Source: Planctomycetales bacterium
Lineage (GTDB): Bacteria; Planctomycetota; Planctomycetia; Isosphaerales; Isosphaeraceae
DNA length: 64,000 nucleotides
Direction: 5' to 3'
Assembly (NCBI GenBank): GCA_027449865.1
Contig: DAIDKV010000061.1
Location: 1 to 64,000 of the forward strand
The notes under the pieces were generated by a model. It made no database searches. It worked only from the letters and a program-made list of their open reading frames with translations, and had not been told where the DNA came from. Numbering within the stretch: position 1 is the first letter of the stretch; every line of letters starts with the position of its first letter. The translations under genes and the position numbers were made by a program. Of this stretch, positions 29,635-35,283 are shown one piece after another.

Positions 29635-30487
29635 GTGATTCAGCCCTCGCCTCCGGAGCTGCTCATAGACACCCAGCCCCGCCGGCCCTATCCCAGCGAT
29701 CTCAGTGATGCCGAATGGGCCATCCCGGAGCCGATGTTGCCCCCGCCCTTCTCGGTGGGCGTGCCGCGCAAGGCCGACTTCCGTGAGGTCGTCAATGCGA
29801 TCGAATACGTCCTGAGGTCTGGTTGTCCTTCGTCCGCCTTGCCCCCACGACTTTCCCCAGGAGGGCACGGTCCAGGATTACTTCCATCAATGGCGCCGCT
29901 CCGGGCTCTGGCAGCGGATTCATGACGCGCTGCGCTCCCGCGTGCGCCGGGCGGCCGGGAAGGAGTCGGAGCCTCGCGCCGGCAGCATCGATAGCCTGAC
30001 CGTTAAGGCGACACGGACCAGCGGGCAACGGGGCTACGACGCGGGGAAAAAAATCAACAGGGTCAAGCGGCACATTTTTGTGGATACCATGGGGTTACTG
30101 CTGGCGGTGGTCGTCCATTCCGCGAACATCCAAGACCGTGACGGGGCCAAGCTCGTCTTCGCCAGGGCTCGGCTCACCGGCGCGTGGCCGAGGATGGAAC
30201 GGGTCTGGGCCGACGGCGGCTATGCGGGAAAGTTGATCGCCTGGGTCGCCTCCTTCTGTCAGTGGGTCCTGGAGATCGTCAAGCGCAATGACGACTTGAA
30301 GGGCTTCAAACTCCTGCCCAAGCGTTGGGTGGTCGAGCGGACATTCTCCTGGCTGTCGAATGATCGTAGTCTGAGCAATCATTATGGATATTGCAACGAC
30401 ACGGCGGAGACGATAATTTATATGGGGATGATCCGACTGATGCTGCGACGCCTGGCCGACGAAGAAGCAGGCGCGGGGGTTTCCTAG
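29635..30487 (+). pseudogene. IS5 family transposase, frameshifted
   Basis: The N-terminal part ('YPSDLSDAEWAIPEPMLPP', 'NAIEYVLRSGC') is in one frame up to about 29840. The remainder continues in another frame, from 'HDFPQEGTVQDYFHQWRRSG' to 'KRWVVERTFSWLSNDRSLS'. The shift coincides with a run of five Cs at 29845-29849; four would restore the frame. The DDE residues are Asp in 'SIDSLTVKA', Asp in 'VWADGGYAGKL' and Glu in 'VVERTFSW'. Some IS5-group elements use programmed frameshifting here, so the gene might still be expressed. Terminal repeats were not found. Confidence 0.75.
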
Positions 30488-30746: not shown

Positions 30747-30753
30747 ATGAAAT

Positions 30754-30767
30754 GGGGGGGGGGGGGG
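30754..30767 (+). repeat. homopolymer tract of 14 G near a gene start
   Basis: Fourteen consecutive Gs lie seven bases after an ATG at 30747. Read from that ATG with 13 or 16 Gs, the frame continues directly into the lipoprotein gene and supplies a basic N-terminus ('[17 protein letters not shown]'). With 14 it does not. Such tracts change length by slipped-strand mispairing and are a classic phase-variation device, but they are also prone to sequencing error. Confidence 0.85.
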
Positions 30768-30798
30768 AATCCCCATCTTTCGGCAGTCGCTGTTTATC

Positions 30799-31842
30799 GT
30801 GAATCTCGCCCTGTTCATCGCGGGCTGCTCCTCATCCAAGGGAGAGCCGGACAGATCTGACATTCTGCTCGTCGAGGCAACGGATGCCTCTCGAGCAAGG
30901 GGAATGGCAGCAGTCCAGTTGCGACATGATTTTGGTTCGATCATTTCGGATGGTGAAATACTATCGCACACCTTCCGCTTTCGTAACTCTTCCGGACGTG
31001 TACTGAAAGTCGTTGAGACCTTCGTCGCGAAGCCCTGCTGCTCGGGATTTGGAGAGATCGCCAGCACGGTCTCCCCTTATGGTTTCCTCGATATTCCTAT
31101 CTTCATGAAGACTCTGGGATACGAGGGCCCCGTCGAGGCCAGCTTCGTCGTCCGCACGGATGCGCCGGGTCTAGATCGTTTGAGTCTCGTGGCCCGGGCC
31201 AACCTGATCGAAGAATTTGCGATCCAACCTGTCGGGGACGAGGCGAGCGCGTTCGTCGGACAAGATAGCGAATTCTTCTATCGCCTAATAACACGGCGAC
31301 CGTTGGGCCGGAACCGGTTGCCCTTGAAGCTTTCGATCTCACCACCGTTCCATGCCGGCCTACTCGGTGACGAGACCGAGCATGAATATTCCGCGGGAGT
31401 GATCGAATGGAGCCGTGATTTGTCCGTACGGCTGCCAGCAAGAGAAAAGCCGGGCCCGATTTCAACCTCGATTCGATTGGAATGGGACGAAGGGCGTGTC
31501 TCGACCATTCCTCTCTCGTTGATGGTCCGAGCCAACCTGGAGACGTCACCAGAGGCGGTGATGATCACATCCGCCGAGAGAAACGCGGAGCGTGTCATTA
31601 TCGTCCGCTCTCACAATCGACCCTTCGTGGTCCGAATGGTCGAGGGAACGGCCGTGAGCCGATACACGATCAAGCCCGATGAATCGGGATCGAAGCACCA
31701 GGTCGTCATTTCTATCCGTTTCGATTTAGGCGGTTTACCTAATGGCGAAAGGGTGTCCATCCGGATCGTCACCGACGACCCTGGGTCGCCCGTCTTGACG
31801 GTTCCGGTCGTCGTGGTCGATGAGTCGAGGAACCTTAAATGA
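30799..31842 (+). CDS. DUF1573-like lipoprotein, first gene of the C39 cluster
   Basis: A 347-aa exported protein with a lipobox-like 'LFIAGC' (Cys10 from GTG 30799). The mature part begins with a DUF1573-type immunoglobulin-like domain: '[20 protein letters not shown]' then '[15 protein letters not shown]'. Further beta-rich domains follow, ending in '[19 protein letters not shown]'. From GTG 30799 the signal peptide is too short and lacks basic residues; the natural start is probably ATG 30747, across the 14-G tract. It overlaps the next gene by four bases (ATGA). Confidence 0.75.
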
Positions 31843-32867
31843 ATCGCAACGAGAGACTTCTCTCCTGGCGTGGCAAGCGAGGCGTCACGATTGTCGAACT
31901 GCTGGTCGTGATGGGGATCATCGCCCTTCTAGTCGCACTGTTGCTGCCTGCCGCGCAGTCTTCTCGTACCGCCGCGCGCCGGGCAAGCTGCACGAACAAT
32001 TTGAAGCAGTTGACTTTAGCGATGCATGGCTACCACGACGCTTATGGGAAGCTGCCACCGCCCGTCACTAATTCCAACAGGCCTGATTATATGGGCACCT
32101 ATTCAATTCACGCCAGGATGCTCCCTTACCTGGAATATGGTCCGCTCTACAACGGGATCAACTTCACAATTGGCTCGGCCCCCCTCGAATCGCCCGGGCT
32201 ACCGGAGCCCCTCCCGAGGGACTTGCCCGGGCTCGCAGCTAACGGAACCGCATACCGGACCTCGATCAGCCTCTTCCTCTGCCCCGAGGACGCCGCGGCG
32301 TTCTCCGACACCGGGTGCGACTACCGAGGCAACACCGGGGTCGGATGGTTCATCGCCGCGAATGCCGAGTTCCCGGACAGTGCGAACGGTTTCTTCCCCG
32401 AGACGAAGCCGCGGGTCGGGTTTGCCGACGTGACCGACGGCCTTTCGCATACCGTGGCCTTCAGCGAGCGACTTCGGGGCACCGGTCGTCGTGGAGATCC
32501 CGACCCGTCGCGGGATTTCTTCGCCTTGATGACAATGGTGCAGACGGCCGACCAGCTCCTCACGGCGTGCCGCCTGGCCGCTCGATCCGACGGGCGCAGC
32601 TTCGTCGACGGCGGACGCTGGTGGTTCTGGTCCGGCCGTGAGCGGACGCTCTACAACCATGCTCAGGCGCCAAATGGGCGAGTCCCCGACTGCCTGTTCT
32701 GGTCGATGATCAGTAGCGCCGGGATGGCAACCGCCCGGAGCCTCCATCCCGGTGGAGTTAACGTCGGCCTGGGCGACGGGTCCGTTCGTTTCGTCAAGGA
32801 TTCGATTGTTCCAACCGTCTGGCGGGCCATTGGGACACGCAACGGCGGGGAACTCGTGGATTATTGA
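31839..32867 (+). CDS. DUF1559 pseudopilin-like protein
   Basis: A 342-aa protein with a type IV pilin-like N-terminus. The prepilin peptidase site is after Gly15 in '[19 protein letters not shown]', with Glu at +5, and a hydrophobic helix follows. The DUF1559 landmarks are '[17 protein letters not shown]' early and '[20 protein letters not shown]' near the end. Compared with the paralogues at 56971 and 58314, the middle is different and shorter. It is translationally coupled to the upstream lipoprotein gene (ATGA). A role in an extracellular or periplasmic structure is inferred. Confidence 0.88.
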
Positions 32868-32955: not shown

Positions 32956-33513
32956 ATGGTGGCAGTCAAGCAAGGAATTCGGAAGCATGCCTCGTTTTTC
33001 CTGTTCACGACGGGCATTGTCCTGATCCTCGCAGCCGCACTGACGAGCTTGGCCGGCTCTCGGCTCGGCTCTCGTGGAGGAAAGCCAGTTGCGGCTGAGA
33101 CCTTGGATGATATTGCCGGCGCCTCGACGGACTGGGTCGTTCGGGCATCCTACTCATGCGCCCAGCAGACATTAAATGACTTCAATAATGCCGGAAATCC
33201 CAAAGCCAAGGGGGTCGTCGCCGTATGCACGCCGCAAGCCGTTACGAACCAGAGCCCGTGCTGGGTCTGCGCGAACAGTTTGACGAGCAACGTCATTTCC
33301 GGCGGAGGCGATGGCATGGGCCAGAACTTCGGGCCACAAAGCTGCGGCCAGTTATCCCAAGGGACATGCGGAGTACCTCAGCCCGCTCCAATATCTCCGA
33401 TGGGGTCGAGCCTCGGTATGGTTGTCCCGCCCGGGGCGGGGTCGTGCATGAACACTAAGCCACAGGCCAACTTCTTCTGTTCGGCCGCCCAGGTTGGAAC
33501 TGACCAGACCTGA
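32956..33513 (+). CDS. cysteine-rich membrane-tethered protein (candidate C39 substrate)
   Basis: A 185-aa protein. A basic start ('MVAVKQGIRKHASFF') and one membrane helix (about residues 12-33) are followed by 'LAGSRLGSRGG' with Gly41-Gly42, then an exported region with eight cysteines at 68, 91, 102, 105, 130, 138, 164 and 175. The even number suggests four disulfides. A GGAGG site lies 10 bases before the ATG. I do not recognise the family. The Gly-Gly just beyond the membrane and the C39-like peptidase two genes downstream suggest it may be cleaved there and released; this is inference. Confidence 0.7.
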   Translation: MVAVKQGIRKHASFFLFTTGIVLILAAALTSLAGSRLGSRGGKPVAAETLDDIAGASTDWVVRASYSCAQQTLNDFNNAGNPKAKGVVAVCTPQAVTNQSPCWVCANSLTSNVISGGGDGMGQNFGPQSCGQLSQGTCGVPQPAPISPMGSSLGMVVPPGAGSCMNTKPQANFFCSAAQVGTDQT

Positions 33514-33523
33514 GGACCCGATC

Positions 33524-34696
33524 ATGGACCATGCCAACAAGGCAGTCGGCGGCGCGACTATCGCGATCATGATCATGGCTTGCCTTGCCACGGGAGCCGT
33601 CCGTGGCGAGGCTGTCTCCCGCGAAGATCTGCTCCGATTACTTCGGGCGTCTCGGGAGAAGCTCTCCGACGTGGAATTTGTCTATGAGGGATCGCTCAAA
33701 CAATTGCGCAATCCTGATTTTGAGAAGGTACCGAAACGCTTCCGTAATCCCCACCCCCTGGGGCCCGACGACGCGATGCGTTTTCAGGGCCGCTTCGCCT
33801 ACAGGCGGGACGGCCGAGCGCACCTCGATCTCTACACCTGGCAAGCACCTGGGGAACACCCCGTGACGCGGAACGTCGCGTGCCTGATCGGCGATGGGAA
33901 GGTGCATCTCCAAACATTCCATCCCGGCGGCGGCCCGCTTGGGCCAGCACTCTCCGAACCGGGCGGGATCTCATACTTCCTTGGAGGGTATCGCCCTTGG
34001 CACTTTGACGTATTTCCGTGGCTAGTCTCACTGCTATCGGATTCCGGCCACTACGAATACGAGTTCGTCGGCTGGGAGGACCTTGGCGGACGGCGGTGCC
34101 TCGCAGTTCGGCTCCAGGATCTCGCGAAGGTGTATATCAACGAGTTCTGGATCGACCTCGAACGGCATGGAAACGTCCTGCGATTCGACGAGGTGGTGAG
34201 AGGTAAAAGGATTTCACAGGCGATTGATGTCGATCTCGTCCAGGTTAGCGACGCACGAGGAGAAATCTTCTGGCTCCCGACTCGCGGTCGGTACGTCTGC
34301 TTCCAGGATCTCTGGACTCTATTAGATGAACCCGTAACAGAGGAAACATTTGGGATCATTCAAGGAACTCTTTTGATCAATCGTGGGCTGAGGAACGATC
34401 GCTTCATGCTCGCCTACCGACCCGGCGCTACGGCGGCGGTCGCTGTTCAGCGGGCAGGTACGGCGGCGGTCGCTGTTCAGCGGAAGGACTCGACGATTCG
34501 TACAGTGGACGGCTCCAAGAGTCTGGACGATCGACTGGATTCGATGCTTGCGGAGGCGGATCGCCAGTCGAGCGAACTGGAAGCCTCGTCCCCGGATCGG
34601 TCCGGGACACCGAGAAACTTCTGGTCGTGGGCCCTGGCTGGGGCCGGAATAGTGTCTATTCTATCGGCCGCCGTGCTCAGGAGGCGATTCTCGTGA
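33524..34696 (+). CDS. exported, membrane-anchored protein of unknown function
   Basis: A 390-aa protein with a signal peptide ('GATIAIMIMACLATGAVRGE'). A beta-rich body begins 'REDLLRLLRASREKLSDVEF', similar in style to planctomycete LolA-like proteins. A C-terminal membrane helix is followed by basic residues ('WALAGAGIVSILSAAVLRRR'). A 30-base duplication at 34430-34486 gives two copies of 'TAAVAVQR' before the anchor. It starts 10 bases after the Cys-rich gene and overlaps the C39 gene by four bases, so it is part of the same transcription unit. Function unknown. Confidence 0.75.
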   Translation: MDHANKAVGGATIAIMIMACLATGAVRGEAVSREDLLRLLRASREKLSDVEFVYEGSLKQLRNPDFEKVPKRFRNPHPLGPDDAMRFQGRFAYRRDGRAHLDLYTWQAPGEHPVTRNVACLIGDGKVHLQTFHPGGGPLGPALSEPGGISYFLGGYRPWHFDVFPWLVSLLSDSGHYEYEFVGWEDLGGRRCLAVRLQDLAKVYINEFWIDLERHGNVLRFDEVVRGKRISQAIDVDLVQVSDARGEIFWLPTRGRYVCFQDLWTLLDEPVTEETFGIIQGTLLINRGLRNDRFMLAYRPGATAAVAVQRAGTAAVAVQRKDSTIRTVDGSKSLDDRLDSMLAEADRQSSELEASSPDRSGTPRNFWSWALAGAGIVSILSAAVLRRRFS

Positions 34697-35283
34697 TCCG
34701 CAACCGGCCCGTGCGGCACCCAATCATGGCCTGCGCTGTGCTGTTGCTGATTTCTACATTTCATTGTTTTGCCAATATTTCTCCCATCGAGGATCCCCGG
34801 GAGCCTTCCTGCGGCGCCTGGGCCCTGGCCGTTCTCGGCGGACTCCAAGGATTGAAGCTCGATTTTAGCGATCTCGAAAAATCCCTGGGTCCGCAGTCGA
34901 ACCGCGGCCACTCCATGGCTCAAATCGTCGAAGCGGGACGTCGACGCGGTCTTGGGCTCCGGGCCGTCCGTCTCGATCGAGCAGAGTACCCGACCTCGTC
35001 ACCGGCGATCGTCCGTGTCGAGCGGGCAGGCGCGGGCCATTTTGTCGTGATCCGCCCCGTCGGTCTCTCAGGACGGCTCGTGCAAGTTTTCGACCCTCTC
35101 CAGGATGTGCAAGTCATCGATTATACCATCTTGACCGCCCAGGAATGGTGGACAAATGTCGCTATTGTCCCTGAATCCGACCCAGCGGGCCGGTCCGTTT
35201 TCCTTTGGCTACCGCTCGTGACGGCAGTCCTCTTGGTGTCCGTTCAGCGATCCTTGCGGAGCCGGGGTCGTCCGTTCCTTTGA
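34693..35283 (+). CDS. membrane-anchored C39-like cysteine peptidase
   Basis: A 196-aa protein. An N-terminal membrane segment ('IMACAVLLLISTFHCFA') leads to a C39-like papain-fold domain and then a C-terminal segment ('SVFLWLPLVTAVLLVSV'). The catalytic positions are visible: Cys40 in 'PSCGAWALAVLGG', His116 in 'AGHFVVIRP' and Asp134 in 'VQVFDPLQ'. Their spacings (76 and 18) are close to those of C39 domains. The topology puts the active site outside the cytoplasm, unlike ABC-linked C39 domains. Start GTG 34693 overlaps the previous stop (GTGA). Likely substrate: the Cys-rich protein of the cluster. Confidence 0.75.
   Translation: MIRNRPVRHPIMACAVLLLISTFHCFANISPIEDPREPSCGAWALAVLGGLQGLKLDFSDLEKSLGPQSNRGHSMAQIVEAGRRRGLGLRAVRLDRAEYPTSSPAIVRVERAGAGHFVVIRPVGLSGRLVQVFDPLQDVQVIDYTILTAQEWWTNVAIVPESDPAGRSVFLWLPLVTAVLLVSVQRSLRSRGRPFL

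Follow-up and report, generated by a model that had tools for sequence, protein, structure and literature searches.

A G14 tract as a proposed slipped-strand switch of a planctomycete lipoprotein gene, and frame-shifting repeats at the same place in related loci

A run of 14 guanines between the start codon and the body of a lipoprotein gene in a draft Isosphaeraceae genome is, on comparison with related loci, best explained as a slipped-strand contingency switch, that is, translational phase variation of the lipoprotein; we put the probability of this reading at about 0.84. An initial annotation of the window (the whole 64,000-nt stretch of DNA analysed here) had suggested phase variation from the tract. 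Relatives lend support to that proposal: of 28 related loci, 20 have a repeat with a frame-shifting unit in this position, and the units differ.

The switch would operate as follows. Replication slippage would lengthen or shorten the tract. At 13 or 16 Gs, start codon and signal peptide would be joined in frame to the body (ON). With 14 Gs, as assembled, or with 15, translation from the upstream ATGs would stop early (OFF). The state of the tract would decide on display of the lipoprotein, which is encoded by the first gene of a putative envelope-directed cassette. It may also alter translation of the DUF1559 gene, because the start of that gene lies inside the lipoprotein stop codon. We infer that the tract changes length in living cells, that expression switches on and off, that the lipoprotein is exposed at the surface and that downstream genes are affected; the data are single assemblies (those with named records all metagenome-assembled), in which tract lengths are those of the assembly and not of individual reads or clones.

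The G14 tract and the reading frames of the lipoprotein gene

The tract consists of exactly 14 Gs, the first of them lying seven bases past the A of ATG30747 (Table 1). It had been described as striking, and this was borne out: no other run of G or C in the window exceeds 8 bases, and the 8.48-Mb draft genome (278 contigs) has no longer G run. Genome-wide (8,476,534 bases, both strands), seven runs of at least 10 Gs were found, with lengths of 14, 11, 11, 10, 10, 10 and 10. A base-composition model (32% G, hand arithmetic) gives about one run of at least 14 Gs in such a genome. The same model gives roughly 130 runs of at least 10 Gs, so that long runs are far rarer than predicted and the model overestimates them. 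Taken alone, G14 is an outlier and not a proof; its significance comes from its position and from the relatives.

Frames were computed for tracts of 11 to 17 Gs. With 14 Gs, ATG30747 opens 37 codons followed by a stop. With 13 or 16 Gs, translation reads MKWGGGG(G) and continues into the lipoprotein body, exactly as the initial annotation had it. In this 13/16-G frame, a candidate lipoprotein signal-peptide motif with a lipobox cysteine was recognised by eye. The claim that ATG30747 is the only useful start has to be corrected: ATG30681 lies in the same frame, is open to the tract and likewise runs into the body with 13 Gs. Both starts are blocked at 14 Gs, and the correction leaves the conclusion unchanged.

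Table 1. Features of the lipoprotein gene, its leader and the genes downstream (window coordinates)
Feature	Coordinates	Strand	Basis or remark
Alternative upstream ATG, same frame as ATG30747	30681..30683	+	Open to the tract; SD-like letters upstream
Start codon ATG and AAAT running into the tract	30747..30753	+	Sequence, frame computation
G14 tract, proposed slipped-strand switch	30754..30767	+	Sequence, run search, comparison with relatives
Remainder of leader when in frame; lipobox IAGC at 30817-30828	30768..30828	+	Motif by eye
DUF1573-like lipoprotein body; GTG30799 first standard start	30799..31842	+	Open frame; all-beta prediction for 30916-31839
DUF1559 (SBP_bac_10) prepilin-like protein; N-methylation motif, H-X9-DG C-terminus	31839..32867	+	Profile matches
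Small Cys-rich protein; hydrophobic N-terminal segment, then LxxIxG(A)-type motif	32956..33513	+	Sequence
P4, cassette protein	33494..34696	+	No Pfam/NCBIfam match; start possibly an internal ATG
Peptidase_C39-domain protein; putative catalytic C/H/D conserved across loci	34627..35283	+	Profile match, alignment

The body frame itself is closed upstream by TGA30748 and its first standard start is GTG30799. One could propose that the gene starts there, and that the G tract is upstream non-coding DNA, perhaps a promoter or ribosome-binding element. Such a start opens the body frame and retains the lipobox. Moreover, a G10 tract is located upstream of the start in one relative (L021), a plausible GTG start follows C10 in another (L164), and tracts in contigs C20 and C93 of the window's own genome lie just upstream of other starts. 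However, a protein beginning at GTG30799 would have no basic N-terminal region. In addition, the lipobox is located upstream of the tract in L019, L024, L040, L041, L042, L093 and L096, which places the tract within the coding frame of these loci. We regard a start at GTG30799 as very improbable.

The lipoprotein body and its cassette

Similarity of the body to DUF1573 (PF07610) was weak, with 17.6 bits under a gathering cut-off of 26.1, and the protein can only be called DUF1573-like. The structure model of residues 40-347 was all beta with a short C-terminal helix (mean pLDDT 87.6). Among the 50 structural matches listed, axonemal central-apparatus proteins and Ig- or cadherin-domain chains predominated, with query TM-scores of at most 0.34. 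Because no listed query TM-score exceeded this value, we limit the claim to a predicted chain of Ig-like domains and make no more specific one.

The ATG of the second gene overlaps the lipoprotein stop codon. Its product is a clear DUF1559/H-X9-DG member, as judged by scores of 163.5 bits against PF07596 (cut-off 23.3), 24 against N_methyl (21.2) and 40.3 against TIGR04294 (19). The fifth gene product matched Peptidase_C39 (PF03412) with 39 bits (cut-off 22). Its putative catalytic residues, which we chose by the Cys/His/Asp arrangement of the family, were present among alignable matches in 18/18 (C), 20/20 (H) and 19/20 (D or N) cases. In tblastn searches of 30 wide loci of the lipoprotein type (L074-L103), 27 gave a match to the DUF1559 protein, 22 to P4 and 20 to the C39 peptidase; in several of the loci, the contig or the stretch fetched stops early. 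The small third protein gave a similarity match only in L089 and was recognised elsewhere by position. By eye, 22 of 23 small proteins carry [L/M]-x-x-[V/I/L/F/A/S]-x-G after the hydrophobic segment, the exception being L094. This motif resembles the double-glycine leader at which C39 peptidases cut; cleavage here is putative. None of the five cassette proteins matched a PADLOC model.

The lipoprotein gene is the first of a probably envelope-directed cassette that comprises at most five genes. The Cys-rich protein, P4 and the C39 peptidase look like a processed, exported peptide system, and they are retained together with the lipoprotein and the DUF1559 gene. As a guess, the cassette would serve to display or export the Cys-rich peptide after processing, and the lipoprotein would be an exposed receptor or adaptor.

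Transposase-like sequence (29635-30487) is located just upstream of the lipoprotein. DDE_Tnp_1 was found in the ORF at 29942-30487, and the neighbouring ORF (29635-29925) may be the other part of the transposase.

Distribution of the family and repeats at the leader

With a profile (A1) of 18 lipoprotein bodies and E<=1e-25, 28 places were found. They lie in 15 genomes out of 397 sampled from the class, and all 15 belong to the window's own family. A search of 45 family genomes recovered the same 28 places, and a search by gene order arrived at these 45 genomes again. A scan of genome contigs with the single lipoprotein sequence found no relative because the family is too divergent; with a closer subset of the bodies (A2), seven loci were obtained, which correspond to loci already in the set. 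Several genomes carry more than one copy: four in G032, three and one partial in G022, three in G016, three including a fragment in G021, and two each in G000 (the window's genome), G014, G042 and G043. Three partial matches under the cut-off (L101, L102 and L103) were left out of the count of 28 and included in a count of 31; L059, L062, L071 and L105 were dropped as repeats of loci already counted.

Simple repeats were scored in a leader window of 320 nt (-260 to +60 around the body start). The minimal lengths were 9, 12, 15 and 16 bases for units of 1, 2, 3 and 4 nt, and 20, 24, 21 and 24 bases for units of 5, 6, 7 and 8 nt, respectively. Identical thresholds were applied to leaders and controls; thresholds and leader window were picked post hoc, after a first look at the leaders. 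A repeat was present in the leader window at 20 of the 28 loci, and at 21 of 31 when the three partial loci were added. The units in these 21 loci were G (13 loci), C (2), AT (1) and pentanucleotides (5), none being of 3 or 6 nt. Pentanucleotide leaders (L016, L017, L018, L039 and L092) include the units CCTTG, GCTGT and CTGCT. Where several copies occur in one genome, each may have its own tract: all four copies in G032 carry a repeat, the copies in G022 carry G10, G9 and two pentanucleotide tracts, and the two copies in the window's genome carry G14 and G9. One sequencing artefact or one programmed frameshift is hard to reconcile with the units G, C, AT, CCTTG, GCTGT and CTGCT.

No repeat above threshold was found in the leader windows of the other 8 of the 28 loci (L020, L022, L025, L036, L095, L097, L098 and L099). 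Among them, L020 has A8, below threshold, and its leader and body frames differ. In L022, the change of frame falls inside the body start, where three CCGA units are close by. L025 and L036 appear complete and in frame (the L036 genome consists of three contigs), and L095 has C8 and is in frame. L097 is a degenerate lipoprotein, L098 a fragment and L099 a remnant.

In a tree, 7 of 22 inner branches were well supported. Well-supported clades include L014 with L015, with a start-proximal G tract, and L016, L017 and L039, with pentanucleotides. A well-supported group of seven rows has G after the lipobox and includes L025, without repeat. Since the types differ between well-supported clades, repeat types arose or were replaced more than once.

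Beyond the 28, repeats were observed in the lipoprotein-type relatives L101 (G9), L104 (G10 in the start codon), L107 (C9), L150 (AC) and L164 (C10), and none within the leader windows of L102, L108, L151, L152 and L160.

Control sequences

In 382,854 bases of control sequence from the same genomes, six repeats were found, two of them with a frame-shifting unit. The sequence of 30 wide loci beyond their leader windows (203,515 bases) contained ten repeats, nine frame-shifting and one triplet. From the 11 frame-shifting outside events in both sets, the leader windows (9,431 bases) would be expected to hold about 0.18, compared to 21 seen; the Poisson calculation treats related loci as independent and so overstates the contrast. 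Distinct non-lipoprotein homologues of the same family (classed by eye, L167 and L168 being dropped for an unclear N-terminus) differ from the lipoprotein family in this respect: 0 of 33 had a repeat in the leader window. A chance G run, possible for one tract alone, is untenable for the set of relatives, given the leader repeats compared to controls. We also rejected a switchable state of the whole cassette, as none of the ten repeats outside the leader windows of the 30 wide loci recurs at another cassette gene.

The family does contain contigs beginning with long poly-G (G005:C63, G007:C153 and G006:C143), probably a sequencing artefact. A G12 pattern search of the family was kept out of the counts, some genomes having poly-G contig ends. 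Tracts of L030 (G25) and L038 (G23) are located at contig ends, where lengths may be inflated and should not be trusted, and a G21 run near P4 in L088 lies beside an N gap. One could therefore ask whether a homopolymer miscount or poly-G read ends produced the pattern. However, G14 lies in a contig of 72,841 bases (C61) with over 30 kb on either side, AT and pentanucleotide repeats occupy the same place in relatives, and one would expect an artefact to strike the remainder of the same loci as readily as the leader. These observations make an assembly or sequencing artefact extremely unlikely. The G14 count may be in error by 1-2 Gs, which would alter the called ON/OFF state only.

Leader and body frames, and selection on the body

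Leader and body frames differ in 16 of 18 assessable repeat loci and are the same in two, L015 and L042. L030 and L038 (contig ends) and L021 (tract upstream of the start) were left out of this count. Both shifts occur among the 16 out-of-frame loci (6 and 10 loci). Random phase would put 6 loci, one third, in frame, and the two seen fall short of this (binomial P 0.033). OFF may therefore be favoured and be the commoner state in the sampled populations, or there may be another decoding route. The anchor of L015 is hydrophobic and has no lipobox. Some of the loci called OFF have in-frame non-ATG or weaker starts (TTG in L016, GTG in L019, ATG in L024, GTG in L092 and ATG in L096).

Recoding would be such a decoding route. 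RNA-polymerase slippage or programmed ribosomal frameshifting would constantly yield some full-length lipoprotein from unchanged DNA, which would fit a majority of out-of-frame assemblies with bodies nevertheless under purifying selection (see below). Frame-restoring transcriptional slippage is indeed reported, in the part of PMC2831843 available to us, at poly-A tracts of B. aphidicola. However, a recoding site is expected to hold its length and sequence, the required shift varies among our loci, and L015 and L042 are in frame. We know of no slippery sites of the recoding kind made of pentanucleotide or AT repeats, which also counts against recoding. One single programmed frameshift, in particular, is disfavoured by the presence of both shifts and by these non-slippery units. 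Recoding thus appears unlikely as the explanation, and a switch at the DNA level is preferred.

The closest pair of loci, L042 (G022:C214, in frame) and L026 (G020:C231, out of frame as judged by homology to L042, since the L026 contig ends), comes from different species, with 84% mean column identity (DNA). Their bodies differ by gaps of 3 and 6 nt, and the sole other internal gap is one of 2 nt at the tract. The dN/dS of this pair was 0.21 over 304 codons (Nei-Gojobori, own script). The four pairs next in closeness gave 0.23-0.35, and values among the 18 pairs listed reached 0.56, distant ones being partly saturated. This evidence is drawn from relatives, the window's own gene having none close enough. 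The low dN/dS of L042 and L026, together with the 2-nt gap at the tract, shows that the body is kept by purifying selection while the leader frame changes.

The same values bear on the idea that the loci are decaying pseudogenes and the tracts ordinary frameshifts. Degenerate or fragmentary loci do occur (L097, L098, L099, L102 and L103), and the frame change in the body start of L022 could be read in the same way. Decay is nevertheless exceedingly improbable for the family: bodies of ~300 aa are open in most loci, PCCS and other columns are invariant in the 18 aligned bodies, and dN/dS is 0.21-0.35 in the five closest pairs.

Relation to known systems

Phase variation by simple repeats is well known, and the nearest analogues of the planctomycete tracts are the 5' repeats of gonococcal opa and pilC. 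The repeats of Neisseria opa genes sit in the region coding for the signal peptide, and Opa is an outer-membrane barrel. Our loci resemble opa in having out-of-frame 5' repeats in a multi-copy gene for an exported protein, pentanucleotide units, and a tract of their own for each copy. They differ in that the product is a lipoprotein with predicted Ig-like domains, that several unit types occur in one family, and that the hosts are planctomycetes and no pathogen is involved. Opa serves here as a mechanistic analogue only. A surface lipoprotein of Mycoplasma reportedly phase-varies by localized frameshift (Theiss and Wise, in 1997), as is proposed here for a lipoprotein of a different lineage. 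The opa repeat unit is CTTCT, and gonococcal pilC undergoes translational phase variation through poly-G, according to the portion of PMC5320596 consulted. As in pilC, a poly-G near the gene start shifts the frame and would switch the protein; in contrast to pilC, where switching is demonstrated, the planctomycete case is a deduction from sequence and concerns another protein in another phylum. The sections of PMC2831843 at hand put forward homopolymer tracts at 5' ends as a device of general use in prokaryotes and describe poly-A/T, but not poly-C/G, as over-represented.

For the planctomycete lipoprotein family, we found among the papers listed no earlier report of phase variation or slipped strand mispairing in open-licence literature on Planctomycetes or Isosphaeraceae, judged mostly by title and the start of the abstract. 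In the part of PMC3711429 at our disposal, Planctomycetes are mentioned once, in a table row.

Replacement of the repeat type at a fixed place in one gene suggests that selection may act on switchability and not on a particular sequence. The genomes with several lipoprotein copies, each with its own repeat, offer a direct test system. More tentatively, and with somewhat less than an even chance of being right, we propose that Isosphaeraceae possess multi-copy, independently switched envelope cassettes. In these, C39 would process an exported Cys-rich peptide, the Ig-like lipoprotein switched by its simple repeat would gate display, and selection would keep the leader repeat while its sequence is replaced. 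On this reading, bacteria not known as pathogens would have a multi-locus repertoire of phase variation, its driver perhaps being phages, predators or rival cells and not an immune system.

Further repeats in the window's genome and in relatives

In the window's genome, the G9 of the paralogue (L084/L041, G000:C154) is located between lipobox and body, and this locus is out of frame. The same genome has a second short DUF1573 lipoprotein (L104/L008, G000:C76:6032-6041), which scored 26.5 bits against the cut-off of 26.1. Its G10 lies inside the start codon, and the assembled sequence is in frame; a DUF1559 gene follows about 2.3 kb further downstream.

In G004, a one-contig genome, L164 and L107 carry C10 and C9, respectively, in or near the leader. 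The in-frame GTG downstream of C10 in L164 has a plausible leader, which makes this case ambiguous; the frames of L107 are unclear.

Several repeats lie outside the leader window and were left uncounted. They include T24 and G13 farther upstream of L108 (G020), G10 at -351 in L155, a non-lipoprotein homologue, and T9 in L091. Just outside the leader window of L097 (G043:C289), two adjacent pentanucleotide arrays of 106 and 90 nt (196 nt) occupy the stretch between 456 and 260 nt ahead of the body match. A 34-nt CTCGT repeat is located 2075 nt upstream of the body match in L095.
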